A stretch of 64,000 nucleotides of DNA from an uncultured Gelidibacter sp. Lineage in GTDB: Bacteria > Bacteroidota > Bacteroidia > Flavobacteriales > Flavobacteriaceae. The translations under genes and the position numbers were made by a program. The notes beneath the pieces are model-generated. The model was given only the letters and a program-made list of their open reading frames with translations. It made no database searches and was not told where the DNA came from. Of the stretch, positions 42,433 to 60,179 are shown piece by piece (position 1 is the first letter of the stretch; each line of letters opens with the position of its first letter). The stretch covers positions 372,001-436,000 of the forward strand of contig NZ_CANMTE010000001.1 of NCBI RefSeq assembly GCF_947500795.1. Direction: 5' to 3'.

Positions 42433-44343
42433 ATGAGTAAAATAATTGGAATCGATTTAGGTACAACCAACTCTTGCGTTTCGGTAATGGAAGGTAACGA
42501 GCCAGTTGTAATTCCTAATGCAGAAGGTAAAAGAACTACACCATCTGTCATTGCTTTCGTAGAAGGTGGTGAAATTAAAGTTGGTGATCCAGCAAAACGT
42601 CAAGCGGTAACAAACCCTACAAAAACGGTTTCTTCCATTAAACGTTTCATGGGTAACAAGTATTCTGAGTCTAAAAACGAAGCAGAACGTGTACCATATA
42701 AAGTGGTAAAAGGTGATAATGATACGCCAAGAGTAGATATTGACGGTCGTTTATATACACCACAAGAATTATCAGCAATGATTCTTCAAAAAATGAAGAA
42801 AACTGCAGAAGATTATTTAGGTCAAACAGTATCTGAGGCTGTAATTACAGTACCAGCTTACTTTAATGACTCTCAACGTCAAGCTACAAAAGAAGCTGGT
42901 GAGATTGCAGGTTTAAAGGTACGTCGTATCATTAACGAACCAACTGCTGCTGCTTTAGCTTACGGATTGGACAAAAAAGGAACAGACCAAAAAATTGTTG
43001 TTTTTGACTTTGGAGGTGGAACGCATGACGTTTCTATCCTTGAGTTAGGTGATGGTGTTTTTGAAGTATTGTCTACAGAAGGAGATACACACTTAGGTGG
43101 TGATGATGTTGATGAAAAAATCATCGATTGGTTAGCTGACGAATTCAATAAAGAAGAAGGTATCGATTTACGTAAAGATCCTATGGCGCTTCAACGTTTA
43201 AAAGAAGCATCAGAGAAAGCGAAAATTGAATTGTCATCTTCAGGACAAACTGAAATCAACTTGCCATATGTAACAGCTACAGCTAGCGGACCAAAGCACT
43301 TGGTAAGAACGTTAACTAAAGCGAAATTTGAGCAATTGATTGACGATTTAGTAAAACGTACTATCGAGCCTTGTAAGAATGCAATGAAAGCTGCAGGTCT
43401 TTCAATATCTGATATTGACGAAGTTATCTTGGTAGGTGGATCAACACGTATCCCAGCTGTACAAGAAGCTGTTGAAAAATTCTTCGGTAAAAAACCTAGT
43501 AAAGGTGTAAACGCTGATGAAGTTGTTGCCGTAGGTGCTGCAATTCAAGGTGGTGTATTAACTGGAGATGTTAAAGATGTATTGCTTCTTGATGTGACGC
43601 CGTTGTCTTTAGGTATTGAAACAATGGGTAACGTGATGACGAAGTTGATTGAAGCTAACACTACAATTCCAACTAAGAAATCGCAAATATTCTCAACAGC
43701 TGCAGACAATCAACCTTCAGTGGAAATCCACGTATTACAAGGTGAGCGTGCTATGGCAGCCGATAACAAAACAATTGGACGTTTCCATTTAGATGGTATT
43801 CCACCAGCAAAACGTGGAACTCCTCAAATTGAAGTAACGTTTGATATTGATGCCAATGGTATCATTCACGTAACGGCTGGAGATAAAGCTACAGGAAAAA
43901 CACAAGACATCCGTATTGAGGCGTCTTCTGGATTGACTGAAGAAGAAATTAAGAGAATGAAAGCTGATGCTGAAGCAAATGCTGAAGCTGATAAGCAAGC
44001 GAAAGAAAAAGCAGAGAAATTAAATGCTGCTGATGCAATGATTTTCCAAACAGAAAGTCAATTGAAAGAGTTTGGTGATAAATTATCTGATGATAAGAAA
44101 AAACCAATTGAAGAAGCGCTTGAAGAATTGAAAACAGCTTTCGAATCTAAAGATATCGCAGTAATCGACCCAGCTCTTGAGAAAATCAACGAAGCTTGGA
44201 AAGTTGCTAGTGAAGAAATGTACAAAGCACAAGCAGAGGCTCAAGGTGGACAACAAGGACCTGATGCTGGAAACGGAGCTCAAGGTGGTCAGTCTAATGA
44301 AGGTAGCGACGTTGAGGACGTAGACTTTGAAGAAGTAAAATAA
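42433..44343 (+). CDS. dnaK: Molecular chaperone DnaK (Hsp70)
   Basis: A 636-residue Hsp70. The ATPase domain starts [14 protein letters not shown] (residues 4-17), with [21 protein letters not shown] split by the phosphate loops and [14 protein letters not shown] as phosphate-2. A linker [14 protein letters not shown] leads to the substrate-binding domain (about 390-510) and a helical lid with the acidic C-terminal tail ending [11 protein letters not shown]. It folds nascent and stressed proteins with DnaJ and GrpE, neither of which is next to it. Codon use is highly biased, as expected for an abundant protein. Confidence 0.98.
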
Positions 44344-44412
44344 GCTGAAACCTTATTTTGATAATCATAATAAAGTGAATAGCTAATTCCGAGCTAGACT
44401 TGGAATACTAAT

Positions 44413-44446
44413 AAAAACGCAACCTTAAATTAAGGTTGCGTTTTTT
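44413..44446 (+). terminator. Terminator after dnaK
   Basis: Arms CGCAACCTTAA (44418-44428) and TTAAGGTTGCG (44430-44440), a perfect 11-bp stem flanked by A and T tracts, so it can work in both directions and would also stop the leftward paralogue gene. Confidence 0.85.
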
Positions 44447-44471
44447 ATTTGGTTGATTTTTAGAGAGACTG

Positions 44472-45020
44472 TTATTGCTTAGCACTTAAAACCTCGCCAT
44501 CACCATCTACTTTAATGTTCATCTTTTCACTGCCTTTTGAAATTTGCAGATGATAGGTTCTTTCAAGATCTCTATTGCTCGCAAACTTCACACGAAATAC
44601 CGTTGAGTTCAGTTTCCAATTAGGATACTTGTCTAAAAGCGATAATCTCACTTTTTCAGTCAGTTGCACATTCTCAAATCTTTCTATAGATTTTAACAAC
44701 TCTCCATCATTATTATATACCGCTCTAATTTTACCTGCATGATTTTTAAATATAATTAAATAGGATTCATATTTACCATACAAGTCAGAGCTGGTAATGT
44801 CGTACTTAGCAGCTGCCGTTTCAAGTCCCTTTACTGCTGTGGATGCAGTTGGATCGTAAACAGCATCATAATAGGTTACATTTTTAATAGGTGATAAAAT
44901 AATTTCATCTAAATCTACATAAGCTATCGTAGTTTCAGGATCCTGTGCATTAACCAAGTTACTTAGGCCTATAATTGCTAGCCCAACAAGCATTAGTTTT
45001 ACTTTTTTTATAGTTTTCAT
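44472..45020 (-). CDS. Secreted small paralogue, type A copy 1
   Basis: A 182-residue protein with a signal peptide (about 1-25, ending NLVNAQ) and a mature domain of about 155 residues. It shares with the other A and B copies an N-terminal LDEIILSPIKN block, a middle block GELLKSIERFENVQL and a C-terminal LLDKYPNWKLNSTVFRVKF block; the last resembles a PepSY-like/BLIP-type beta fold (low confidence). About 39 bases downstream of B1, so B1-A1 form an operon. Function unknown, secreted or periplasmic. Confidence 0.8.
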   Translation of the reverse strand: MKTIKKVKLMLVGLAIIGLSNLVNAQDPETTIAYVDLDEIILSPIKNVTYYDAVYDPTASTAVKGLETAAAKYDITSSDLYGKYESYLIIFKNHAGKIRAVYNNDGELLKSIERFENVQLTEKVRLSLLDKYPNWKLNSTVFRVKFASNRDLERTYHLQISKGSEKMNIKVDGDGEVLSAKQ

Positions 45021-45059
45021 GATTTCTAGGTGTTTAAGTTACAGATTGAATAGTTGGAT

Positions 45060-45590
45060 TTATTTAGGATTTAAAAGAACTCCATTATTATCAATCTTTA
45101 GATTCATTCTTTTGTTGTCTTTAATCAGTTGTACCTCGTATACCCGTTTGATATCTTTGTTCAACCAATAATTTACCCGATATTTTGTAGTATTAAGTCG
45201 CCAGTCCGGATAGGTGTTCTTGAGTGTCGCGACTACAATTTGTGGCAAAATGATACCTTCAAACTTTTCATTTGAATAAGTGATTTCACCATCACGATTA
45301 AATAGCGCCCAAACTTTGCCATGTTCAGATTCAAATAACACTTCATAATTAGAATTCTCTTTAGAAAATACCGTTGCCGTTGTAATATCATATTTGGCAA
45401 CTAGCTTTTCTAATTTTATAGCTCGTTTAGGAGCATTTGGATCATTAACTAAGTCGAAGTATTTTGCATTCTTATAAGGTGAAACAACAACCTCGTCCAG
45501 TTTCTCTTCACTTACCATTGTGGTAACAATTTGAGAGTTCATCATCAGGCTGGTCAGACCTAAAAAGAGACCAATCAGTAAAGTTTTCAT
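45060..45590 (-). CDS. Secreted small paralogue, type B copy 1
   Basis: A 176-residue protein with a signal peptide (about 1-20) and the array domain: DEVVVSPYKNAKYFDLV, then YDITTATVF, and a C-terminal TYPDWRLNTTKYRVNYWLNKDIKRVYEVQ block split across about residues 120-150. B types share KMNLKID...LNPK ends. Transcription likely begins about 240 bases upstream at a TACCTTTA box with a palindrome in front. It is the first gene of the B1-A1 operon. Function unknown. Confidence 0.8.
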   Translation of the reverse strand: MKTLLIGLFLGLTSLMMNSQIVTTMVSEEKLDEVVVSPYKNAKYFDLVNDPNAPKRAIKLEKLVAKYDITTATVFSKENSNYEVLFESEHGKVWALFNRDGEITYSNEKFEGIILPQIVVATLKNTYPDWRLNTTKYRVNYWLNKDIKRVYEVQLIKDNKRMNLKIDNNGVLLNPK

Positions 45591-45832
45591 AATATTTATA
45601 TTTAGGAGCAGGTACGATCAACCTTGAGAATTATAAAATAGTTAGATGCGATTAAAACGCTCAGTCTTAAAAAGGTCTACACTAAAATTGGGACATTAGC
45701 TTGCAGTAGCACCTTCACGTAAATCGTGTTGCTATTGACAAAATGCTAGTACTTGAATATCTTAAAATGATTTTTTTTGATACCTAAAAGGTAATGTTGA
45801 TGACTTGGGAGCCGAGGGGAAGTGTAATGATA

Positions 45833-45877
45833 TAAAGGTAGGTAAAACTTAAAGAAGGCTATGCTACTATAGTAGTT
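45833..45877 (-). promoter_or_regulatory. B1 promoter with Crp/Fnr-type palindrome
   Basis: Palindrome TGCTA-N6-TAGTT (45862-45877, right half-site two bases off TAGCA), then 21 bases, then TACCTTTA on the minus strand (45833-45840). Centre is about -40 relative to the start, a class II activator position. No -33 TTG is seen, which fits activator dependence. Confidence 0.6.
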
Positions 45878-45973
45878 TTTAGTATGCTTTTTCTTATGTT
45901 TTATTTTTGGTATTGGTTGTAAATCATAGAGTTGTGTGGTTTGGGGCTTTTGAAGGTTGTAATTAGCTGTCAT

Positions 45974-46002
45974 ATAAAAACGCAACCTTTTTATAGGTTG
46001 CG
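45974..46002 (-). terminator. Terminator after A2
   Basis: On the minus strand CGCAACCT (45995-46002) and AGGTTGCG (45981-45988) form an 8-bp stem followed by TTTTTATATG. It lies 29 bases after the A2 stop codon and ends the psiB-A2 unit. Confidence 0.75.
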
Positions 46003-46030
46003 CTCTTTAAGGATGACATTATTTAATTAA

Positions 46031-46582
46031 TTATAGTGAGGCGAAACAACCTGATTTTAATACATCTCCATCACAATTTACTTTTACATTCAATTTATCT
46101 GTGCCTTTTTGAATTTGTAAGTAATATGCTTTTTCAACATCTTTATTGTGGGCATACTTTACACGGAACACAGTTGAATTAAGTCCCCATCCAGGATATT
46201 TGCTTAAAAGTGCTAATCTTACTTTTTCTGGCAATTGGATGTCTTTAAATTTTTCTATAGAAGTAAGAAGCTCTCCATCTTTATCGTACATGGTCACAAT
46301 TTTCCCTACACTATTTTTGAATATGAACATGTAGGAGTCATAGTTGCCGTATACATCTGAAGCGGAGACATCGTGTTTAGCGACTATAGTTTCAAGATCT
46401 TTTACACCTTTTGCGGCATATGGATCATAAACGGCTTTATAATAGCTTACGTTTTTGATTGGCGAAATAATAACTTCATCTAATTTTACTCTATTTGTAG
46501 AAGTTTCAGGGGTCTGAGAGTGAACAAAATTGGAAAAGCTTATAAAAGCCAACCCAATTAATATTGTTTTCATCGTTTTCAT
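46031..46582 (-). CDS. Secreted small paralogue, type A copy 2
   Basis: A 183-residue protein closely similar to A1: signal peptide about residues 1-22, LDEVIISPIKNVSYYKAV, the YGNYDSYMFIFKN middle block, and the SKYPGWGLNSTVFRVKY C-terminal block. It ends DVLKSGCFASL, with a C-terminal cysteine absent from A1. The gene starts 46 bases after the stop codon of the psi-B remnant, which kept the promoter. The upstream motif ATGATTTCTAGGTGTTTAA is shared with A1. Confidence 0.78.
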   Translation of the reverse strand: MKTMKTILIGLAFISFSNFVHSQTPETSTNRVKLDEVIISPIKNVSYYKAVYDPYAAKGVKDLETIVAKHDVSASDVYGNYDSYMFIFKNSVGKIVTMYDKDGELLTSIEKFKDIQLPEKVRLALLSKYPGWGLNSTVFRVKYAHNKDVEKAYYLQIQKGTDKLNVKVNCDGDVLKSGCFASL

Positions 46583-46628
46583 GATTTCTAGGTGTTTAAC
46601 ATTGAATTTTAATTTTATTACTAGCTGT

Positions 46629-46819
46629 TATTTAGGATTTGGAATGACGCGATTACGGTCAATTTAATTTCATTTTTTATTGGATTACATCAAAATAAGC
46701 AGTGTTTTTAAAGGCGTTTAGACAAACTTCATTTAAGACCACTTCACTTATGTATGTTAAGGTTCGGGTGTGCCTAAGGCTGGTCGGACCTAGAAAAGAC
46801 CATTCAGTGAGTTTTTCAT
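46629..46819 (-). pseudogene. Type B remnant with internal deletion
   Basis: About 190 bases remain of a type B gene between B2 and A2. The start reads ATGAAAAACTCACTGAATGG, similar to B1 ATGAAAACTTTACTGATTGG, but a one-base loss brings an in-frame TAG at codon 10. The end preserves codons for IDRNRVIPNPK and a stop, matching the B1 C-terminal IDNNGVLLNPK, with an in-frame TAA just before. The middle of the coding region, roughly 340 bases, is missing. Its promoter and palindrome upstream are intact, so it may now only serve A2. Confidence 0.82.
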
Positions 46820-47171
46820 ATTATTGTATTTAGAAGCAGGTTGTTCCCAATGAGAGATAACTAAAAGCTACTAAGGATTAGCGCTCAGAGGTGCACCGTT
46901 CAGTACGAGAATTAGGGCAGTAGTGTGAAGTAGCAGATTTATGACATGACTCTGCTAACTTAATTTTATACGAGTTTTTGATTCTAAATTGGAACTATTT
47001 CTGACTTGGGTTTCGTGGGGGAAGTTTTATAGGATAAAGGTAAAAAATACTTGAAGTTGGTTTTGCTATTTAAATAGCATAAAATGTTATTTTAACTGAT
47101 TTTTTTGCTTTTTTTAACGTTGTCAAATCGTTGTTGTGTATGGCTTTATAAGGGTTTCTTGGAGATGAACG
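46820..47171. other. Leader region of psi-B
   Basis: Non-coding. It matches the B1 and B2 leaders in the GAAGCAGGT motif on the plus strand near the start codon, in GCGCTCAG-like and GAATTAGGGCAG blocks, and in the GGGGGAAGTTTT element beside the -7 box. Confidence 0.6.
47035..47079 (-). promoter_or_regulatory. psi-B/A2 promoter with perfect Crp/Fnr-type palindrome
   Basis: TGCTA-TTTAAA-TAGCA at 47064-47079 is a perfect 16-base palindrome. It is followed on the minus strand by 21 bases and TACCTTTA (47035-47042), the same spacing as at B1 and B2. Confidence 0.65.
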
Positions 47172-47217
47172 CAAATCAAGAACGCAGTCTTTTTATAAGA
47201 TTACGTTCTTGATTTGA
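47172..47217 (-). terminator. Terminator after B2
   Basis: AAATCAAGAACG (47173-47184) and CGTTCTTGATTT (47204-47215) form a perfect 12-bp stem, with T-rich flank. It is 21 bases after the B2 stop codon, so B2 is monocistronic. Confidence 0.75.
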
Positions 47218-47236
47218 TTAGTTGCTTATGTTGAAA

Positions 47237-47776
47237 TTAAAGGTTTTTAGGATTCATTATTACCCCGTTACAATCAATTTTCAAATTCATTTTTTTATCA
47301 TCTTTTGTAAGTTGTACTTCATACATCCGTTTGATATCCTTGTTCAAATTGTATTTTACTCGGTATTCAGTTGTATTAAGTCTCCAATCTGGATAGGTGT
47401 CTCTAAGCGAAAGTCTTACAGTTTCCGGTAATCGAATACCTTCAAATTTTTCGTTAGAATTTAATAGTTCTCCTTCGCCACTAAATGACGCCACAATACT
47501 TCCGTAGTTAGACTCAAATAAGACTTCATAGCTATTGTGATTTTTTGAGTATACTGTTGCAGTTTTAATGTCATATTTACCAACTTCATGTTCAAGTTGT
47601 TTGGCCTGGCTTGGCGCATTAGGATCATTTACTAAATTAAAGTATTTGGTGTGGATTACGGGCGATACTATTACCTCGTTCAGGGCAACTTCTTCTACAT
47701 TTACCGAAGCGTTCGGAGTTTGGGAGTACATAAGGGTGGTCAGACCTAAAAATAGACCAATCATTAAAGTTTTCAT
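47237..47776 (-). CDS. Secreted small paralogue, type B copy 2
   Basis: A 179-residue protein starting MKTLMIGLFLG with a signal peptide of about 19 residues. It shares with B1 the blocks NEVIVSPVIHTKYFNLVNDP, YDIKTATVYSKN and DTYPDWRLNTTEYRVKYNLN, each a clear match. A longer frame adds 21 codons upstream but lacks support. It stands alone between a terminator and its own promoter region; its A partner is missing. Unknown function, exported. Confidence 0.78.
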   Translation of the reverse strand: MKTLMIGLFLGLTTLMYSQTPNASVNVEEVALNEVIVSPVIHTKYFNLVNDPNAPSQAKQLEHEVGKYDIKTATVYSKNHNSYEVLFESNYGSIVASFSGEGELLNSNEKFEGIRLPETVRLSLRDTYPDWRLNTTEYRVKYNLNKDIKRMYEVQLTKDDKKMNLKIDCNGVIMNPKNL

Positions 47777-48254
47777 AATATATTTGTTTTGAAGCAGGTG
47801 ATCTCTTAATGAGAAATAATCGCAAAGCAACTCATGCATTATCGCTCATTCGTCAACGGTTCAATACTAAATTTGGGACATTATTGTGGTGTAGCAAGTT
47901 CACAAAAAGCGTGATGTCGCTAACTCAATTTTAATAATGGCTATTAGGGTTCTAACTAGGGAAATAAATTAACTGTGGGAATTTATATTGCTAAGAATTT
48001 GATTTGGTGCGCGGGGAAGTTTAATGATGTAAAGGTAAGATAATCACTAAGGCGACTTTGCTACTTATATAGCACTCAGGGCGTTTTAACAAAATTTTTT
48101 GTTTTTTAACATTCGGAAACCATGCAAATTATGATGGCATTCCAATGTTAAAAACGCAACCTCATACTAACTTCGGAGCGTGTGCTGGTGTTGCCATTTC
48201 TCTAAAATTATGGCGATTTTTTATACGGTTTAATTTGTGATTTAATCGGAAGGT
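47777..48254. other. B2 leader and promoter; 3' end of regulator transcript
   Basis: Non-coding. About 250 bases of B2 leader hold GAAGCAGGT on the plus strand and ACTAAATTTGGGACATTA, shared with B1. Beyond the palindrome, 48149-48203 can form a weak hairpin (GCAAC...GTTGC) with a T tract on the minus strand, a possible terminator for the regulator gene. Confidence 0.55.
48030..48074 (-). promoter_or_regulatory. B2 promoter with perfect Crp/Fnr-type palindrome
   Basis: TGCTA-CTTATA-TAGCA at 48059-48074, a perfect 5-base inverted repeat with a 6-base spacer. It is followed on the minus strand by 21 bases and TACCTTTA (48030-48037). Confidence 0.65.
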
Positions 48255-48965
48255 TTAAAGGAAAGGATCTTTTGTGTCACTTTGTTCTTTTAACAATTGA
48301 AGGTCTAATATTTTAATGTGTTTGCGACTGACATCGATAATTCCTTCTTTTTTAAATAGTTGTATGTGGCGATTAAAAACAGCACGTGAAGTGCCAATTA
48401 ATTCTGCCAACTGCTCATGGGCTAAATTATCAATGTGTTCTATTTTACCGGTACTCTCATTATAGTGTCGCAATAATAAATTTGCCAATCGAGCAGTAAC
48501 GGTATTTGTACCAATATCTAAAATATGCGACTCGAGTAATTTAAATTGTTGAATGGTGTATGTGAAAAAAGCCTTTAAAGTGTCAGGATTGGTTTTTAAC
48601 CAGTCTCTCATAATATCCATTGGAACCACTAATAGATCTAAATCTTCCAATAGTTCATAACAGACATCATGTTGAATGGTATTGATTAGTGTAAAGACAT
48701 CAAAAACATCATTTTTGGTGAGTATAAATAGCGTGAAATGTTTATCTGACTGGTTTAAATTGTAGACTTTTATTTTGCCTTTAACAATAAAATGAAATTT
48801 GTAGAGCGTACATTCTTTATCAATAGTGTGTTCTCCTTTGATAAGATGTTTCAAAGTACAACTATTTACCAAACTTAAAAGTGAGTGTTCAGTAGTAGTC
48901 TCGAAAATTGAATTGTTTCTTAACAGGTGTATGTATAAATCGCATTTGTTTTGGTCTGCAGCCAT
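48255..48965 (-). CDS. Crp/Fnr family regulator heading the paralogue array
   Basis: A 236-residue regulator: cNMP-binding-type barrel (about 20-125), dimerisation helix and a winged helix near 155-225. The recognition helix is GTSRAVFNRH, with Arg194, Ala195 and Arg199 aligned to CRP Arg180, Glu181 and Arg185. The lost glutamate suggests an altered site, fitting TGCTA over TGTGA. It is transcribed leftward into B2 and the other copies and is the best candidate to act on their palindromes. No cysteine cluster for an iron-sulfur centre. Confidence 0.88.
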   Translation of the reverse strand: MAADQNKCDLYIHLLRNNSIFETTTEHSLLSLVNSCTLKHLIKGEHTIDKECTLYKFHFIVKGKIKVYNLNQSDKHFTLFILTKNDVFDVFTLINTIQHDVCYELLEDLDLLVVPMDIMRDWLKTNPDTLKAFFTYTIQQFKLLESHILDIGTNTVTARLANLLLRHYNESTGKIEHIDNLAHEQLAELIGTSRAVFNRHIQLFKKEGIIDVSRKHIKILDLQLLKEQSDTKDPFL

Positions 48966-49091
48966 TATAAAAAATTGTGCAGGCAGCCCATAGTATAAAG
49001 GGGTAAAAATGCCAATGAAGTTACGATATTAATTTGTAATTAGAGAATTATGTTTGTTAACTTCAAAATACTATGCATGCATAATATTTCC

Positions 49092-49099
49092 TATATTTG
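49092..49099 (+). promoter_or_regulatory. -7 box for the nitronate monooxygenase gene
   Basis: TATATTTG matches TAnnTTTG exactly, 28 bases upstream of ATG 49120. It supports this start over one 22 codons upstream, which lies before the box. Confidence 0.55.
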
Positions 49100-49119
49100 T
49101 AAAAACAGCACGTATATAT

Positions 49120-50064
49120 ATGTCAAAACTTAACCAACTTCTCAATATAAAATACCCAATTATTCAAGCGCCAATGTTTTTGGTTTCAAATACCGCTATG
49201 GTTATTGAGGCTATGAAGTCAGGTATTGCAGGGTGTATTCCTGCTTTAAATTATAGAACCTTGCCCGAATTGAAATCTGCCATTCACGAACTGAAGGCGG
49301 CAAAGGTAGAAGGTGGTTCTTTTGGATTTAATTTGATAGTTAACAAATCTAATATCAAATACAAAGAGCAGTTACGCGTATTGTGTGAAGAAGGCTGTGA
49401 TTTTATCATCACCTCATTAGGCAGTCCTGAAGAAACAATAAATCAAGCTCACAAAGCGGGCATTAAAGTGTTTTGTGATGTCACAGATTTAAAATTTGCG
49501 CAAAAAGTGGAAGCCTTGGGTGCGGACGCTATTATAGCGGTTAATAATGAAGCAGGTGGGCACCGCGGAGAGATTTCGCCTAAAGACCTCATAGATCTTT
49601 TAAAAAGCAATTGTAATATTCCTATTATTTCAGCTGGTGGTGTTGGGACAAAAGCCGATTTGGATAAAATGTTGGCTTATGGTGCAGATGGCGTTTCTAT
49701 TGGCAGCCCATTTATCGCATCTGTTGAAGCTGGGGTGACGGAGGAATATAAACAAGCTTGTGTAGACTATGGCGCTGATGATATTGTGATGACACAACGT
49801 ATTTCGGGTACACCATGTACGGTCATTAATACGCCTTATGTCCAAAAAATTGGAACCAAGGAGTCGTGGTTGGAATCTGTGCTGAACAAGAATAAAAAGC
49901 TTAAGAAGTGGGTGAAGATGATCCGTTTTTCAATCGGTATGAAAGCCACAGAAAAAGCGGCCAAGGAAGCAACTTATAAAACCGTATGGGTGGCCGGGCC
50001 GAGCATTGAATACACTACACAAATCCTTCCGGTAAGAACAATTGTTCAAAATTTAACTGTCTAA
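49120..50064 (+). CDS. Nitronate monooxygenase family FMN enzyme
   Basis: A 314-residue TIM-barrel flavoprotein of the 2-nitropropane dioxygenase/nitronate monooxygenase family. Features: N-terminal IKYPIIQAPM, EAGGHRG near residue 151 (the phosphate region), and FMN phosphate-binding ISAGGVGTKADLDKMLAYGADGVSIG split around 176-205. It would oxidise alkyl nitronates or related compounds. It is divergent from the Crp/Fnr gene by about 155 bases. Confidence 0.87.
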   Translation: MSKLNQLLNIKYPIIQAPMFLVSNTAMVIEAMKSGIAGCIPALNYRTLPELKSAIHELKAAKVEGGSFGFNLIVNKSNIKYKEQLRVLCEEGCDFIITSLGSPEETINQAHKAGIKVFCDVTDLKFAQKVEALGADAIIAVNNEAGGHRGEISPKDLIDLLKSNCNIPIISAGGVGTKADLDKMLAYGADGVSIGSPFIASVEAGVTEEYKQACVDYGADDIVMTQRISGTPCTVINTPYVQKIGTKESWLESVLNKNKKLKKWVKMIRFSIGMKATEKAAKEATYKTVWVAGPSIEYTTQILPVRTIVQNLTV

Positions 50065-51872: not shown

Positions 51873-54800
51873 ATGAATTTATTAATTAAATCAAATGCTA
51901 TGCTATTATTCTACGTTACCAAAAACGGTAGACTCGAGAGGTCTATTATGAATCTGATTTGTTGTGCGTTAGTTTTGTTCTTTTCTGTCCAGTCAAGTCC
52001 AGAACTTTTTGCACAAAATGACACACCTTGTGAAGGTGCACAGAGGTGGACAAGAGGAGCTTCTTGGAATCAAAATGGATCCATTAATGATTCTAATCAA
52101 GCACCCTCTCCCAACGGTATCATACGTTGCGGGAGTTCTGCTGAAACTCAGTCGCAACTCGTCCCCTTTAATAATTCAGTTTATAATTCCAGTCAATTCG
52201 CCATTAATGTTGAAGGCTCAAATGCCTGTATAGATCCAAGTAATGGTCAGCCTGTCAATGTTAAAAATCCTACTAATGGGCAACCTATCATTTGGTTGAA
52301 TTTTGACGTAAGACCTAAAGCGGGCAGCTTTGAAATTCAATTGAACGATAATTCAGGCGATAAAGTAGGGTGGGCACTTTATGTTTCTAATGTTCATCAA
52401 ACAGGAACTACTTTAGCTGCCAATGGAAATATATTGAGTGGCGATTGTTCCAATTTAACAAAAGTAGCATGTGGTGTTGAAAGTTCAAGTATGTGGAATA
52501 CCATACCCATTGATGGGGCCGATTTTATTGAAGCTACCAATTTCTACCTCGCCATTTGGGATCAAAATGCAGATGGCAATTTATCTATTAATAATTTTAA
52601 AGCACGGTATGGCTGTGGTGATGCAGATTTTGAAACCTGCTCATTAAGTAGTGGGACACCAGAAGAAGTGTGTAATAATGACGGCACTTTTACTATTAAT
52701 GTGCCGATAGAAGGAATTAATGGAGAATATATTGGATATGACGCTAATGCTAAAAATGGCGGCTTATCAAATAGAGTTTGTTTGACCAATTCCGGTGAAG
52801 CAGGGAGTACGTCAGGTGTCATTTCCTTAACCTACGATCAAGGGGTTGATTATAATATTCAAATTTTTGAAACGACTAATTCTAACCCACCAACACCTGT
52901 AATACCAAGTGCAGGTTGTGATCATCCAGATCCTTATCCTGGAGATCCTAATAATGGAAACGCAGATAGTTGTGTGGCAACAGTTACCGGTACGGCACCG
53001 GAGTGTTGCGTAGCACCTACATTAGTAACAGCTAACGGCTCGGTGTGTGCAGAATCGCAATCTGATATTGACTTAACGACGTTGGTTACTTCTAATGGAA
53101 TTGTCAGTTTTCATGAAACTCAAGCTGAGGCAAATTCCAAGTCCAATCCAATCAACTCGACAGTAAGTCCACTAGCGCCCAAAACATATTATGTCAGAAG
53201 TGAAGTTGATGCATATTGCTTTGTGACAGCTATAATAGAAATCAGTATTGATCCATTACCAACAGTGACCGTTTCGGGCGGCTCCTGGTGTACGGATGCT
53301 GGACTTGTTCAAAATATAGCAGGTTCTGGAATGCCTTTGGGCGGTACATACAGTGGAACCGGCGTTACCGACAACGGTGACGGCACGTTCAATTTTGATA
53401 CCTCAATGGGTACGCAGACGCTGACCTATACCTATAGTGATGGAAATGGCTGTGAAAACTCAGCAACAGCTTCGCTAGAGATCAACGATCTTCCAACAGT
53501 GACCGTTTCGGGCGGCTCTTGGTGTACGGATGCTGGACTTGTACAGAACATTGCAGGTTCCGGAATGCCTTTGGGCGGTACCTACAGTGGAACGGGAGTT
53601 ACCGACAACGGTGACGGCACGTTCAACTTTGATACCTCAATGGGCACGCAGACACTTACCTATACCTATAGTGATGGTAATGGTTGTGAAAACTCAGCAA
53701 CAGCAAGTCTAGAGATCAATGATCTACCAACGGTGACCGTTTCGGGCGGATCCTGGTGTACAGATGCTGGACTTGTACAGAACATTGCAGGTTCGGGAAT
53801 GCCTTTGGGCGGTACCTATAGTGGAACCGGCGTTACCGACAATGGTGACGGCACGTTCAACTTTGACACCTCAATGGGCACACAGACGCTGACCTATACC
53901 TATTCCGATGGAAATGGTTGTGAAAATTCAGCAACAGCAAGTCTAGAGATCAACGATCTTCCAACAGTGACCGTTTCAGGTGGATCATGGTGTACAGATG
54001 CGGGACTTGTACAGAACATTGCAGGTTCTGGAATGCCTTTGGGCGGTACTTATAGTGGAACCGGCGTTACCGACAACGGCGACGGCACGTTCAACTTTGA
54101 CACCTCAATGGGCACACAGACGCTGACCTATACCTATAGTGATGGAAATGGTTGTGAAAACTCAGCAACAGCTTCTTTAGAGATCAACGATCTTCCAACG
54201 GTGACCGTTTCGGGCGGATCCTGGTGTACAGATGCTGGACTTGTGCAAAATATAGCAGGTTCTGGAATGCCATTGGGCGGTACCTATAGTGGAACCGGCG
54301 TTACCGACAATGGTGACGGTACGTTCAACTTTGATACCTCAATGGGCACACAGACGCTGACCTATACCTATTCGGACGGAAATGGTTGTGAAAACTCAGC
54401 AACAGCTTCGCTAGAGATCAACGATCTTCCAACAGTGACCGTCTCCGGCGGCTCCTGGTGTACAGATGCTGGACTTGTTCAAAATATAGCAGGTTCTGGA
54501 ATGCCTTTGGGCGGTACTTATAGTGGAACCGGGGTTACCGACAACGGTGACGGTACGTTCAACTTTGACACTTCGATGGGCACGCAGACACTGACCTATA
54601 CCTATTCCGATGGAAATGGATGTGAAAACTCAGCAACAGCTTCGTTGGAAATCAACGATCTTCCAACGGTGACCGTCTCCGGCGGATCCTGGTGTACAGA
54701 TGCTGGACTTGTTCAAAATATAGCAGGTTCTGGAATGCCTTTGGGCGGGACTTATAGTGGAACCGGGGTTACCGACAACGGTGACGGTACGTTCAACTTT

Positions 54801-57800
54801 GATACCTCAATGGGCGCACAGACACTGACCTATACCTATTCCGATGGAAATGGTTGTGAAAACTCAGCAACAGCTTCTTTAGAGATCAACGACCTACCAA
54901 CAGTGACCGTCTCCGGCGGCTCCTGGTGTACAGATGCGGGACTCGTACAAAATATAGCAGGTTCTGGAATGCCTTTGGGCGGTACCTATAGTGGAACAGG
55001 GGTTACCGATAATGGTGACGGTACGTTCAACTTTGATACCTCAATGGGCACACAGACGCTGACCTATACCTATTCCGATGGAAATGGATGTGAAAACTCA
55101 GCTACAGCGAGTCTAGAGATCAACGATCTTCCAACAGTAACCGTTTCGGGCGGATCCTGGTGTACGGATGCTGGACTTGTTCAAAATATAGCAGGTTCGG
55201 GAATGCCATTGGGCGGTACATACAGTGGAACGGGCGTTACCGACAACGGTGATGGCACGTTCAACTTTGATACCTCAATGGGCACGCAGACGTTGACCTA
55301 TACCTATAGTGATGGAAATGGTTGTGAAAACTCAGCAACAGCAAGTCTAGAGATCAACGATCTTCCAACAGTGACCGTTTCGGGCGGAGCCTGGTGTACA
55401 GATGCTGGACTCGTTCAAAATATAGCAGGTTCTGGAATGCCATTGGGCGGTATCTATAGTGGAACAGGAGTCACCGACAACGGAGATGGCACGTTCAACT
55501 TTGATACCTCAATGGGCACGCAGACGTTGACCTATACCTATTCCGATGGAAATGGTTGTGAAAACTCAGCAACAGCTTCGTTAGAGATCAACGATCTTCC
55601 AATAGTGACCGTTTCGGGCGGATCCTGGTGTACGGATGCTGGACTTGTACAGAACATTCCAGGTTCGGGTATGCCATTGGGCGGTACATACAGTGGAACC
55701 GGCGTTACTGACAACGGTGACGGCACGTTCAACTTTGACACTTCGGTGGGCACGCAGACGTTGACCTATACCTATAGTGATGGAAATGGATGTGAAAACT
55801 CCGCAACAGCTTCTTTAGAGATCAATGATCTTCCAACAGTGACCGTCTCCGGCGGCTCATGGTGTGCAGATGCTGGACTTGTTCAGAATATAGCAGGTTC
55901 TGGAATGCCAGCAGGCGGTACCTATAGTGGAACAGGCGTTACCGACAATGGTGATGGCACGTTCAACTTTGATACCTCAATGGGCACACAGACACTGACC
56001 TATACCTATAGTGATGGCGACGACTGCAGCAACAGTGCAACGGCAACATTGGACGTAAATGCATTGCCAACAGTGACCGTCTCCGGCGGCTCCTGGTGTA
56101 CGGATGCTGGACTTGTTCAGAATATAGCAGGTTCGGGAATGCCAGCAGGTGGTACCTACAGTGGAACCGGGGTTACCGACAACGGTGACGGCACGTTCAA
56201 CTTTGATACCTCAATGGGCACGCAGACGCTTACCTATACCTATAGTGATGGAAATGGATGTGAAAACTCAGCAACAGCTTCTTTAGAGATCAACGATCTT
56301 CCAACAGTGACCGTTTCGGGTGGCTCTTGGTGTACAGATGCTGGAATTGTTCAAAATATAGCAGGTTCCGGTATGCCAGCAGGCGGTACCTATAGTGGAA
56401 CAGGAGTTACCGACAACGGTGACGGCACGTTCAACTTTGATACTTCAATGGGCACGCAGACGCTGACCTATACCTATAGTGATGGCGATAACTGTAGCAA
56501 CAGTGCAATGGCAACCTTGGACGTAAATCCATTGCCAACAGTGACCGTTTCGGGTGGCTCTTGGTGTACAGATGCTGGACTTGTTCAAAATATAGCAGGT
56601 TCTGGAATGCCAGCAGGTGGTACCTATAGTGGAACCGGCGTTACCGACAACGGTGACGGTACGTTCAACTTTGATACCTCAATGGGCACACAGACGCTTA
56701 CCTATACCTATTCGGATGGTAATGGTTGTGAAAACTCAGCTACAGCGAGTTTAGAGATCAACGATCTTCCAACAGTGACCGTTTCGGGCGGATCCTGGTG
56801 TACAGATGCTGGACTTGTTCAAAATATAGCAGGTTCGGGTATGCCATTGGGCGGTACCTATAGTGGAACCGGCGTTACCGACAATGGTGACGGTACGTTC
56901 AACTTTGATACCTCAATGGGCACGCAGACACTGACCTATACCTATAGTGATGGCGATGACTGCAGCAACAGTGCAACAGCAACATTGGACGTAAATCCAT
57001 TGCCAACAGTGACCGTTTCGGGTGGCTCTTGGTGTACAGATGCTGGACTCGTTCAAAATATAGCAGGTTCAGGAATGCCAGTAGGTGGTATCTACAGTGG
57101 AACCGGCGTTACCGACAACGGTGACGGCACGTTCAACTTTGATACCTCAATGGGCACGCAGACGTTGACCTATACCTATTCCGATGGAAATGGTTGTGAA
57201 AACTCAGCAACAGCTTCGTTAGAGATCAATGATCTTCCAATAGTGACCGTTTCGGGCGGCTCTTGGTGTACGGATGCTGGACTTGTGCAGAACATTGCAG
57301 GTTCAGGAATGCCAGCAGGTGGTACTTATAGTGGAACCGGGGTTACCGACAATGGTGACGGCACGTTCAACTTTGATACCTCAATGGGCACACAGACACT
57401 GACCTATAGCTATTCCGATGGAAATGGATGTGAAAACTCAGCAACAGCTTCGCTAGAGATCAACGATCTTCCAACAGTGACCGTCTCCGGCGGATCCTGG
57501 TGTACTGATGCTGGACTTGTACAGAACATTGCAGGTTCTGGAATGCCATTGGGCGGTACCTATAGTGGAACAGGGGTTACCGATAATGGTGACGGTACGT
57601 TCAACTTTGATACCTCAATGGGCACACAGACACTGACCTATACCTATTCCGATGGAAATGGATGTGAAAACTCAGCTACAGCGATTCTAGAGATCAACGA
57701 TCTTCCAACAGTAACCGTTTCGGGTGGCTCTTGGTGTACAGATGCTGGACTTGTACAGAACATTGCAGGTTCTGGAATGCCTTTGGGCGGTACCTACAGT

Positions 57801-60179
57801 GGAACGGGCGTTACAGACAATGGTGACGGCACGTTCAACTTTGATACTTCGGTGGGCACGCAAACGCTGACCTATACCTATAGTGATGGCGATAACTGCA
57901 GCAACAGTGCAACGGCAACATTGGACGTAAATGCATTGCCAACAGTGACCGTTTCCGGCGGATCCTGGTGTACTGATGCTGGACTTGTACAGAACATTGC
58001 AGGTTCTGGAATGCCTTTGGGCGGTACCTATAGTGGAACCGGCGTTACCGACAATGGTGACGGCACGTTCAACTTTGACACCTCAATGGGCACGCAGACA
58101 CTGACCTATACCTATTCGGACGGAAATGGTTGTGAAAACTCAGCAACAGCTTCTTTAGAGATCAACGACCTTCCAACAGTGACCGTTTCGGGCGGATCCT
58201 GGTGTACGGATGCTGGACTTGTACAGAACATTGCAGGTTCTGGAATGCCATTGGGCGGTACCTATAGTGGAACAGGGGTTACCGATAATGGTGACGGTAC
58301 GTTCAACTTTGATACCTCAATGGGCACACAGACGCTGACTTATACCTATTCCGATGGAAATGGATGTGAAAACTCAGCTACAGCGATTCTAGAGATCAAC
58401 GATCTTCCAACAGTAACCGTCTCGGGCGGCTCTTGGTGTACGGATGCTGGACTTGTTCAAAATATAGCAGGTTCAGGAATGCCATTGGGCGGTACCTATA
58501 GTGGAACAGGGGTTACCGACAATGGTGACGGTACGTTCAACTTTGATACCTCAATGGGCACACAGACGCTGACCTATACCTATAGTGATGGCGATAACTG
58601 CAGCAACAGTGCAACGGCAACATTGGACGTAAATGCATTGCCAACAGTGACCGTTTCGGGCGGCTCTTGGTGTACGGATGCTGGACTTGTACAGAACATT
58701 CCAGGTTCGGGTATGCCTTTGGGCGGTACATACAGTGGAACCGGCGTTACCGACAACGGCGACGGTACGTTCAACTTTGATACTTCGGTGGGCACACAGA
58801 CACTGACCTATACCTATTCCGATGGAAATGGTTGTGAAAACTCAGCAACAGCTTCGTTAAAGATCAACGATCTTCCAACAGTGACCGTCTCCGGCGGCTC
58901 CTGGTGTACAGATGCTGGACTTGTACAAAATATAGCAGGTTCAGGAATGCCATTGGGCGGTACCTATAGTGGAACAGGAGTTACCGACAATGGCGACGGC
59001 ACGTTCAACTTTGACACCTCAATGGGCACGCAGACGTTGACCTATAGCTATAGTGATGGCGATAACTGCAGCAACAGTGCAACGGCAAGATTGGAGGTGA
59101 ATCCATTGCCAACAGTTACAATTACACCATTGGAACCAGTATGTATTGAGAATGGACTAGTTCAAATTATGGCAAGTCCATCGGGTGGAACATTTAGTGG
59201 TTCTGCTGCGATTAATCCAATTACAGGTTTATTTGATCCGATGATTGCTGGTAACGGTACACATACAGTGACTTACACTTATAATAGTTCAAATGGTTGT
59301 GAAGGAAAGGCAACAATTGATATTTCAGTAATTACCTGCCAAGCAGAACCGGAATGCGACACTGTATTTGCTTACAATAGTGAAACCTCCACGTGTTTCT
59401 CAGAAATTTCAGAGCTTAAAAACAACAATCGTTGGGGCTGGACAAATGAGATTACTGCACCAGGTACTTATAATTTCACCTTATATGGTGGCGCAGCACA
59501 CTGCGATATCGATAAAGGTCATAATTATGGCAATGCGAGAGTGGTTTATGCTGACAATGGCGATGTGACAGTCTATTATGAAATGACTGGAGGCAGCGTG
59601 TTAAGTGAAGCCCATGTGTATATTGGATGTACGCCTGTACCAATGGTAACAAAAGGTAAGAAAACCCAAGCTACAGTAGCGCCAGGTCAATACAACTTTA
59701 ATCCTAACTTAGGTGGTGGTGTTCAAAACTATCAAGTTGGACCAGTTAATGTGTCTGGTGGTTCATTCTATCTTATTGTTCATGGTGTAGCTTGTTCTTC
59801 AGGAGTTGTAGATGGTAATGAGAATGGCATATCGTTTAATAAACGAGCCTCTGTGAAATGCGCAACGCCAAGTATGGCATCTGTGGACAGCAATGTAAGT
59901 CTGCAAAAATCTGGAGATATCCTAATTTCACCAAACCCATTTGTTGATAAAGTGGATGTATCATATAAATATGATTATGATACTGATGTTTCAATCGAGA
60001 TTAGAGATATTAGAGGTCTGTTAATTGATTCTTACATAAACAATTCCTATAAGAAAGGTCAAAAGGTCAAAGTGAAATTTGATTTGACTAAAGCTGTAAA
60101 ACATATGTTATTTGTACAGTTTACCACTAATAAGGGGGTTGAAATTAAGAAAGTAATTTCCTCTGATGCCAAACGATAA
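51873..60179 (+). CDS. Giant T9SS-secreted repeat protein (2768 aa)
   Basis: Signal peptide near residues 26-48 (CALVLFFSVQSSPELFAQ) after an unusually long N-terminal extension; starting at Met26 (51948) is also possible. A Cys-rich N-terminal domain is followed by exactly 25 Ig-like repeats of 78 residues (about 462-2411), each with a WC near residue 10-11 and a G-C near 65, likely one disulfide. A related degenerate repeat (LPTVTITPLEPVC) and a C-terminal domain follow. The last ~80 residues (PNPFVDKVDV to KKVISSDAKR) are a type A T9SS sorting domain. Probably an adhesin or cell-surface fibre. Confidence 0.92.
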   Translation: MNLLIKSNAMLLFYVTKNGRLERSIMNLICCALVLFFSVQSSPELFAQNDTPCEGAQRWTRGASWNQNGSINDSNQAPSPNGIIRCGSSAETQSQLVPFNNSVYNSSQFAINVEGSNACIDPSNGQPVNVKNPTNGQPIIWLNFDVRPKAGSFEIQLNDNSGDKVGWALYVSNVHQTGTTLAANGNILSGDCSNLTKVACGVESSSMWNTIPIDGADFIEATNFYLAIWDQNADGNLSINNFKARYGCGDADFETCSLSSGTPEEVCNNDGTFTINVPIEGINGEYIGYDANAKNGGLSNRVCLTNSGEAGSTSGVISLTYDQGVDYNIQIFETTNSNPPTPVIPSAGCDHPDPYPGDPNNGNADSCVATVTGTAPECCVAPTLVTANGSVCAESQSDIDLTTLVTSNGIVSFHETQAEANSKSNPINSTVSPLAPKTYYVRSEVDAYCFVTAIIEISIDPLPTVTVSGGSWCTDAGLVQNIAGSGMPLGGTYSGTGVTDNGDGTFNFDTSMGTQTLTYTYSDGNGCENSATASLEINDLPTVTVSGGSWCTDAGLVQNIAGSGMPLGGTYSGTGVTDNGDGTFNFDTSMGTQTLTYTYSDGNGCENSATASLEINDLPTVTVSGGSWCTDAGLVQNIAGSGMPLGGTYSGTGVTDNGDGTFNFDTSMGTQTLTYTYSDGNGCENSATASLEINDLPTVTVSGGSWCTDAGLVQNIAGSGMPLGGTYSGTGVTDNGDGTFNFDTSMGTQTLTYTYSDGNGCENSATASLEINDLPTVTVSGGSWCTDAGLVQNIAGSGMPLGGTYSGTGVTDNGDGTFNFDTSMGTQTLTYTYSDGNGCENSATASLEINDLPTVTVSGGSWCTDAGLVQNIAGSGMPLGGTYSGTGVTDNGDGTFNFDTSMGTQTLTYTYSDGNGCENSATASLEINDLPTVTVSGGSWCTDAGLVQNIAGSGMPLGGTYSGTGVTDNGDGTFNFDTSMGAQTLTYTYSDGNGCENSATASLEINDLPTVTVSGGSWCTDAGLVQNIAGSGMPLGGTYSGTGVTDNGDGTFNFDTSMGTQTLTYTYSDGNGCENSATASLEINDLPTVTVSGGSWCTDAGLVQNIAGSGMPLGGTYSGTGVTDNGDGTFNFDTSMGTQTLTYTYSDGNGCENSATASLEINDLPTVTVSGGAWCTDAGLVQNIAGSGMPLGGIYSGTGVTDNGDGTFNFDTSMGTQTLTYTYSDGNGCENSATASLEINDLPIVTVSGGSWCTDAGLVQNIPGSGMPLGGTYSGTGVTDNGDGTFNFDTSVGTQTLTYTYSDGNGCENSATASLEINDLPTVTVSGGSWCADAGLVQNIAGSGMPAGGTYSGTGVTDNGDGTFNFDTSMGTQTLTYTYSDGDDCSNSATATLDVNALPTVTVSGGSWCTDAGLVQNIAGSGMPAGGTYSGTGVTDNGDGTFNFDTSMGTQTLTYTYSDGNGCENSATASLEINDLPTVTVSGGSWCTDAGIVQNIAGSGMPAGGTYSGTGVTDNGDGTFNFDTSMGTQTLTYTYSDGDNCSNSAMATLDVNPLPTVTVSGGSWCTDAGLVQNIAGSGMPAGGTYSGTGVTDNGDGTFNFDTSMGTQTLTYTYSDGNGCENSATASLEINDLPTVTVSGGSWCTDAGLVQNIAGSGMPLGGTYSGTGVTDNGDGTFNFDTSMGTQTLTYTYSDGDDCSNSATATLDVNPLPTVTVSGGSWCTDAGLVQNIAGSGMPVGGIYSGTGVTDNGDGTFNFDTSMGTQTLTYTYSDGNGCENSATASLEINDLPIVTVSGGSWCTDAGLVQNIAGSGMPAGGTYSGTGVTDNGDGTFNFDTSMGTQTLTYSYSDGNGCENSATASLEINDLPTVTVSGGSWCTDAGLVQNIAGSGMPLGGTYSGTGVTDNGDGTFNFDTSMGTQTLTYTYSDGNGCENSATAILEINDLPTVTVSGGSWCTDAGLVQNIAGSGMPLGGTYSGTGVTDNGDGTFNFDTSVGTQTLTYTYSDGDNCSNSATATLDVNALPTVTVSGGSWCTDAGLVQNIAGSGMPLGGTYSGTGVTDNGDGTFNFDTSMGTQTLTYTYSDGNGCENSATASLEINDLPTVTVSGGSWCTDAGLVQNIAGSGMPLGGTYSGTGVTDNGDGTFNFDTSMGTQTLTYTYSDGNGCENSATAILEINDLPTVTVSGGSWCTDAGLVQNIAGSGMPLGGTYSGTGVTDNGDGTFNFDTSMGTQTLTYTYSDGDNCSNSATATLDVNALPTVTVSGGSWCTDAGLVQNIPGSGMPLGGTYSGTGVTDNGDGTFNFDTSVGTQTLTYTYSDGNGCENSATASLKINDLPTVTVSGGSWCTDAGLVQNIAGSGMPLGGTYSGTGVTDNGDGTFNFDTSMGTQTLTYSYSDGDNCSNSATARLEVNPLPTVTITPLEPVCIENGLVQIMASPSGGTFSGSAAINPITGLFDPMIAGNGTHTVTYTYNSSNGCEGKATIDISVITCQAEPECDTVFAYNSETSTCFSEISELKNNNRWGWTNEITAPGTYNFTLYGGAAHCDIDKGHNYGNARVVYADNGDVTVYYEMTGGSVLSEAHVYIGCTPVPMVTKGKKTQATVAPGQYNFNPNLGGGVQNYQVGPVNVSGGSFYLIVHGVACSSGVVDGNENGISFNKRASVKCATPSMASVDSNVSLQKSGDILISPNPFVDKVDVSYKYDYDTDVSIEIRDIRGLLIDSYINNSYKKGQKVKVKFDLTKAVKHMLFVQFTTNKGVEIKKVISSDAKR
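53256..59105 (+). repeat. 25 tandem 234-bp units in the surface protein
   Basis: Units start at the codon for Leu in LPTVTVSGG; 25 times 234 bases equals 5850, from 53256 to 59105 with no indel. Units 1-11 all have GNGCEN near the end; from unit 12 on, GDDCSN/GDNCSN units appear at positions 12, 14, 16, 20, 23 and 25. Units 19 and 22, and 20 and 23, are near duplicates, implying a recent 702-bp (three-unit) duplication. Units are near identical in protein but differ at synonymous sites. Confidence 0.95.

Follow-up and report, generated by a model that had tools for sequence, protein, structure and literature searches.

A Predicted Operator at Class II Spacing Links an Unnamed Crp/Fnr Subfamily to Genes for Exported PepSY-like Proteins in Flavobacteriaceae

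Introduction

At class II promoters of Escherichia coli, the activators CRP and FNR bind a site at −41.5. In CRP, an arginine reads the G of TGTGA and a glutamate contributes to recognition of the inner G:C pair; the cyclic AMP (cAMP) pocket is marked by GE and by the R of the phosphate loop. Promoters of Bacteroidota differ from the textbook kind, and we know of few transcription factor sites in this phylum. Here, we examine a tandem gene array headed by a Crp/Fnr-family gene in 64,000 nucleotides from an uncultured Gelidibacter sp. of the Flavobacteriaceae (contig NZ_CANMTE010000001.1, positions 372,001 to 436,000). This whole stretch is termed the window, and coordinates in the array are counted from its first letter.

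The regulator of the array shares with E. coli CRP and FNR the protein family, a 16-base two-fold site, and a site center that precedes the downstream element, counted from its first base, by 29.5 bases. However, the E. coli proteins have TGTGA- or TTGAT-type sites and an RETVGR-type recognition helix, whereas TGCTAC-YTAR-GTAGCA and RAVxNR are found here, together with a Bacteroidota-type −7 element, and neither the cAMP-pocket residues nor the FNR cysteines are kept. The best sequence match among solved structures is PDB 3r6s/4byy, which we take to be the actinobacterial GlxR; its helix is RETVNK, which aligns with RAVxNR, and its cAMP-type pocket (GE, R) contrasts with DV and H here. MalR-like Crp/Fnr proteins of Bacteroides and Flavobacteriales bins have been linked to carbon sources (PMC8510549). 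They too are Crp/Fnr proteins of Bacteroidota with a poorly known signal. The relevant target family, the DUF2874 (PF11396) BLIP-like periplasmic proteins, is thought to inhibit enzymes, and no DUF2874-like protein had been biochemically characterized as of the 2010 structure paper (PMC2954215). The parts of that paper considered here mention no link between Crp/Fnr proteins and DUF2874, and describe a tandem domain repeat in Bacteroides BVU2987, unlike the window proteins.

Results

The Crp/Fnr gene (48255–48965, minus strand; 236 residues) heads the array and reads into it, as the preliminary description had stated, and ends 180 bases before the B2 palindrome. A pattern scan of the minus strand found TGCTA-N6-TAGCA in exact form at the B2 promoter (TGCTATATAAGTAGCA, 48059–48074) and the psi-B/A2 promoter (TGCTATTTAAATAGCA, 47064–47079), and with two mismatches in ten, both in the promoter-distal half, at the B1 promoter (AACTACTATAGTAGCA, 45862–45877). 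In all three, the −7 element TACCTTTA follows exactly 21 bases (N21) from the operator (48030–48037, 47035–47042, and 45833–45840, respectively, minus strand). The three promoters and the fixed gap described earlier are thereby borne out. With the −7 element as reference, the operator center would lie at about −41.5. At E. coli class II promoters, −41.5 to −12 is the same distance as the 8 + 21 bases seen here. The class II geometry proposed in the preliminary description is exact on the sequence, with the site at −41.5 and in exact helical phase when the start position is taken from the −7 element.

The three window stretches (promoter plus 5′ leader) can be aligned along about 300 bases, indicating copies of one duplicated unit. 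Their likeness may thus be plain duplication, and the window alone is undecided between function and duplication. The palindrome itself is not clearly enriched: at up to two mismatches it has 41 matches in the window versus 27.6 ± 5.4 in shuffles, 11 of them in one repetitive open reading frame (53306–58469), and the whole genome holds four exact palindromes versus six for the reversed control. These counts give no clear sign that the palindrome is commoner than background, and palindrome enrichment alone was discarded as evidence. A genome-wide search for the palindrome at N21 from the −7 element had also been proposed. At up to three mismatches, palindrome-N21-TAnnTTTA shows no excess in this genome (35 + 45 versus 42 + 44 for the control); the only two zero-mismatch matches are both in the array, and B1 is one of seven at exactly two mismatches. 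Neither of the two exact palindromes elsewhere in the genome is followed by a −7 element at N21. Around PepSY-like homologues that lie apart from the array, in this genome and in relatives (L027–L033), three palindrome forms were tested; the sole match is a weak form in L031, which adjoins the homologue and has no −7 element at N21. The detectable regulon in this genome is the array only.

Comparison across the family ties the site to the regulator. TGCTA-N6-TAGCA, N20–22, and TAnnTTTA were searched in 397 family genomes with the reversed pattern as control, giving 39 matches in 32 genomes versus 18 for the control (summed columns). A protein search at E 1e-25 separately found regulator orthologues in 41 of the 397 genomes, and 24 of the 39 sites lie within 10 kb of one. 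Site and regulator occur together in 20 genomes, the site alone in 12, the regulator alone in 21, and neither in 344 (odds ratio 27; Fisher 1.3e-14, on the incorrect assumption that species are independent). Of the other 15 sites, three are in regulator genomes but away from the locus (G341, G073, and G145); no orthologue was detected in the genomes of the remaining twelve.

Two sets of regulator loci were compiled, one of 42 family loci plus the window (43) and a larger one of 80 loci picked by the helix pattern IG[TS][TS]RAVxNR plus the window (81). The 80 loci span 21 named genera including Gelidibacter (Gramella is merged with Christiangramia, and unnamed bins are not included); L222, labeled Chlorobiota, is the same DNA as G239, a genome of the window's family. 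TGCTAC-N4-GTAGCA occurs with at most two mismatches in 12, between −20 and +320 relative to the regulator stop, in 57/81 loci as compared to 6/1620 shuffles. The best site has zero, one, two, three, four, or five mismatches in 23, 19, 15, 10, 10, and 4 loci, respectively. At this limit, the operator is present in 18 of 21 genera (17 of 20 besides Gelidibacter), the exceptions being Algibacter, Pricia, and Pareuzebyella. Upstream of the regulator, no locus of 81 has a site with two or fewer mismatches and one has a site with three; autoregulation through the same operator was rejected on this count.

TAnnTT lies exactly 21 bases past the site in 56 of the 57 loci with two or fewer mismatches (TAnnTTT in 47), placing the site center 29.5 bases from the −7 element; the remaining one is at 22. 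After removal of like spacers, N21 holds in 45/46 loci. Among the 43 loci, TAnnTTT[AG] stands at offset 21 from exact palindromes in 25 cases on the regulator strand and 4 on the other, with at most 2 at any other offset, and from one-mismatch palindromes in 8; palindromes with exactly two mismatches give no spacing peak (3 at 21 and 4 at 22, among 710). The strict pattern TGCTAC-N4-GTAGNA-N21-TAnnTTT was searched in 40 regulator genomes (all of the 41 but G089) and in G002 and G044; these 42 genomes have 37 matches, spread over 25 of them, and none for the reversed control. The Gelidibacter genomes of the window, G007, and G008 have no strict matches because their arms read TGCTAT. The wider operator can be written TGCTAC-YTAR-GTAGCA, with TGCTA-N6-TAGCA as the predicted Gelidibacter form. 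Its distal half, TGCTAC, is nearly invariant, and proximal-half positions 15 and 16 vary (C 0.59, A 0.76). No conserved −33 element is found in the spacer, where the commonest base reaches at most 0.59.

The regulator has a C-terminal Crp-type helix-turn-helix (HTH_Crp_2, E 3.5e-15, 56.2 bits, cut-off 27), and its N-terminal cNMP_binding match is just below the cut-off (25.3 versus 27.5 bits). Its profile aligns to whole Crp/Fnr structures, nearly full length with 3r6s/4byy (E 8.7e-30). None of the seven NCBIfam Crp/Fnr equivalogs listed (NtcA, FixK, CRP, Fnr, and others) is matched at its cut-off, the best being NtcA at 46.4 bits (cut-off 245). The 27 orthologues compared share ten invariant columns, of which five fall in the helix-turn-helix around the recognition helix (G191, R194, V196, R199, and Q202), and no FNR-type N-terminal cysteine set for a 4Fe-4S cluster is conserved. 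Because this cysteine set is missing and the cAMP-pocket residues are replaced (GE by DV and R by H, relative to 3r6s), the signal is probably not cAMP and, on these residues, is not an FNR-type iron-sulfur cluster. Within Gelidibacter, four of nine genomes have an orthologue (the window's genome, G000; G. gilvus, G002; G. salicanalis IC162, G007; and G. sediminis, G008), and the same four have close B-type genes beside the regulator; G001 has a 32% homologue and no orthologue. At L156 (4001–4714) and L193 (4001–4726), the translated regulator match contains one stop, reflecting either a broken gene or misplaced end coordinates.

Relative to CRP, the helix and half-site retain the arginine and TG, whereas the glutamate is lost and the inner G becomes T. 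Four regulators of one genus (L110 and L113) instead carry RTMVGR, RTMIGR, or RTIIGR helices, and TGYGAC-type half-sites stand at N21 there (TGCGACCCAGGTCACA, TGCTACCTAGGTCACA, TGTGACCGTGGTATTA, and TGTGACCCTGGTACTA; candidates ranked first or equal first on symmetry and spacing). Such a half-site occurs in 1 of 81 loci of the RAVxNR set (L158). These data are suggestive of an operator half-site that shifts with the recognition helix. Other helix variants are too few, and L130 and L141 have no clean site at N21. At L110 and L113 (genus g160), two units of a regulator and a PepSY-like gene stand in tandem, each regulator having its own helix and site type.

A profile seeded with the four window proteins was applied to the 81 loci. 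An exported PepSY-like homologue is present in 75, downstream on the same strand in 74, with one such homologue in 66 loci, two in 5, three in 2, and four in the window; L164 has three downstream and one upstream. No homologue was found by this profile in L151, L175, L201, L210, L215, and L217. The window A and B proteins are predicted to be exported, by signal peptides judged by eye. B1 scores 23.3 bits against PF11396 PepSY_like (cut-off 28.3), and A1, A2, and B2 do not match it. By its model (residues 2–179), B2 may share a fold with the DUF2874 BLIP-like periplasmic proteins (PMC2954215), which like it have a signal peptide; the Pfam scores set the window proteins apart from that family. 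The model has a mean predicted local distance difference test score of 88, with residues 41–170 in blocks of at least 95; its best PDB matches are DUF2874/BLIP-like (3u1w, 4ipb, 4hbr, 4k61, and 4fr9; E 7e-5 to 2e-3), at low template modeling scores of 0.34–0.37. Enzyme inhibition by the window proteins would be a guess by analogy.

Three palindromes, in G341, G295, and G264, are flanked in each direction by a −7 element at N21 and are possible two-way class II operators. The two-sided palindromes lie at 5025–5040 of L253, 9134–9149 of L135, and 3285–3300 of L126, in two of three cases between divergent genes on the open reading frame map. In G196, where the regulator is present, a site (L256) is followed by a same-strand run of weak PepSY-like, YceI-like, dehydrogenase, and universal stress protein (Usp) genes; in G044 (L257), two Usp genes and an NDH2-like gene follow the site. 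Of 20 proteins scanned from six such loci, several had no match and a few had been taken near the regulator rather than next to a site (L126). A stress regulon is thus to be regarded as a lead and not a result.

Read along the minus strand, the array opens with the Crp/Fnr gene, then B2 and a hairpin; next come the psi-B promoter, a B remnant, A2, and a second hairpin; the B1 promoter, B1, and A1 follow, and a two-way terminator separates them from the convergent dnaK. It thus holds three tandem target units (B2; psi-B and A2; B1 and A1), with hairpins between units on folding. B2 (47237–47776), identified from the open reading frame list, its model, and its fold match, encodes an exported PepSY-like protein of 179 residues, or 200 from an upstream in-frame ATG at 47839. 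The hairpin 3′ of B2 (47165–47220; −22.7 kcal/mol, z −7.8) and the hairpin plus T tract 3′ of A2 (45972–46012; −17.9 kcal/mol, z −6.4) are probable terminators that a simple scan missed. The remnant psi-B (46628–46819) matches B1 by blastn (84% over 44 and 74% over 58 bases) and tblastn (E 1.4e-7); its two ends are still recognizable, its middle is gone, and its frame is broken. Its promoter most likely now serves A2 (46031–46582; 183 residues), an exported paralogue assigned from the open reading frame list and paralogue comparison. In another Gelidibacter, a short 102-residue B/A-type fragment (L143, 5581–5889) is a second sign of gene decay in the array. B1 (45060–45590; 176 residues) is followed after 39 bases by A1 (44472–45020; 182 residues), which has no operator of its own and is 59% identical to A2, 39% to B1, and 41% to B2. 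B2, psi-B, A2, B1, A1, and both hairpins are on the minus strand.

The two-way terminator between A1 and the convergent dnaK (44413–44445) was found by simple scan and folding. The simple scan gave 18 sigma-70-type promoters versus 19.4 in shuffles and 3 terminators versus 2.9; it therefore adds nothing except the 44413 hairpin, and folding backs the two further terminators. No hairpin stands out on folding in the interval from the regulator to B2 (z 0.6), and transcription may thus read through into B2. The 5′ leaders of B1 (45590–45828) and B2 (47776–48025) are about 240–250 bases long and similar between copies, and leaders look much shorter in several other genera; an Rfam search of 44300–49200, leaders included, gave no matches. 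Elsewhere in the window, a 2768-residue open reading frame (51873–60179) with many near-identical repeats (LPTVTVSGGSWCTDAGLVQNIAGSGMP...) suggests, by eye, a giant adhesin-type protein that is secreted and ends in a C-terminal sorting domain.

Discussion

Our analysis supports, with good confidence, an explanation that places the 236-residue protein in an unnamed Flavobacteriaceae subfamily of Crp/Fnr regulators. On this reading, it would bind TGCTAC-YTAR-GTAGCA at about −41.5 as a class II activator and have exported PepSY/BLIP-like genes as its local targets. Some signal would act on the regulator, and its dimer would bind the operator and recruit polymerase to the −7-only promoter of each unit, whereupon the exported proteins of the B2, psi-B/A2, and B1/A1 units would be made. 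Site, spacing, linkage, and target family are properties of the sequences themselves; from these we infer the dimer, its binding, activation, and the location of the proteins. The proposal in the preliminary description that one regulator switches on a set of exported proteins gains support from the comparison, since an independent pattern search places sites next to the regulator and the operator differs with the helix in one genus.

Alternative explanations were weighed against this one. A bound regulator could instead repress, its dimer lying over the −35 region and blocking polymerase; the site overlaps the position of a would-be −33 element, and sequence alone cannot separate activation from repression. 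However, a blocking protein would not need the 29.5-base distance fixed in 56/57 loci, and the spacers have no conserved −33 element, so that the promoters look activator-dependent. We therefore consider repression unlikely. That a regulator encoded elsewhere reads the site, leaving the neighboring Crp/Fnr gene a bystander, would suit G044, with its five sites and no detected orthologue. It is difficult to reconcile with a site that tracks the orthologue across 397 genomes, adjoins its gene, and differs with its helix in one genus, and appears very unlikely.

The palindrome might also act as an RNA hairpin that ends the regulator transcript: it is often found 8 to 80 bases past the regulator stop, a 6-pair stem is possible, and some spacers begin with T. 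Yet two of the three window copies follow other genes, some sites are flanked by divergent genes and have promoters in both directions, arms such as GTAGTT disrupt pairing, and the −7 spacing is exact. Discarded on context and spacing as the main role, the hairpin retains a slim chance. The last alternative, a functionless leftover of recent duplication, accords with the alignment of the three window stretches over about 300 bases and with the lack of a pattern excess in the window's own genome. Other genera, whose spacers have diverged, keep both the site and its spacing (57/81 loci; 45/46 non-redundant), so that duplication alone is refuted for the operator as such, and its likelihood is negligible. 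In 20 other named genera, too, the regulator is accompanied by the operator (at the two-mismatch limit in 17), its spacing, and an exported gene downstream, which removes most of the duplication doubt and supports the earlier argument from conservation to function.

Several observations weigh against class II activation by this subfamily. The N21 geometry fits activation but could also occur with repression. The 80 loci were chosen by the RAVxNR helix pattern, and 25 are identical in DNA to first-set loci, so the two sets are not independent. The two-mismatch limit is missed by 24/81 loci, 16 of which keep TAnnTT at offset 21 after a weaker site; L146, L151, L215, and L217 have a site further downstream instead, and L175, L179, L188, and L193 have none within 3.5 kb. 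The sample behind the helix covariation is two pairs of paralogues from a single genus; of the four sites, two have only 4/8 symmetric pairs and one keeps a TGCTAC half, and L158 pairs a TGCGAC half with an RAVxNR helix. Finally, G044 has five strict operator sites (L257 and L258), and the protein search found no orthologue in this genome of 320 contigs, its best Crp/Fnr match (9.5e-19) having a different helix (TSRVVISR).

A broader proposal is that a stress regulon across Flavobacteriaceae is controlled by this unrecognized subfamily through an operator code of its own. Its simplest form would be one regulator and one exported PepSY/BLIP-like protein; other genera would add universal stress proteins and others, and some operators would serve two divergent class II promoters with N21 on both sides. 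We regard this extension as tentative and rather doubtful.

The protein family, geometry, and target fold are of known kinds, and the subfamily, operator, and pairing appear to be new. No report of the subfamily, the operator, or the regulator-target pairing was found in the open-access literature, a weak test given that the slash spelling "Crp/Fnr" may be missed. The regulator, operator, exact geometry, and target are here predicted jointly and in testable form. Helix variants that occur naturally and have shifted half-sites could be useful for working out the Crp/Fnr recognition code, and the module would provide a regulatory handle on DUF2874-like periplasmic proteins.

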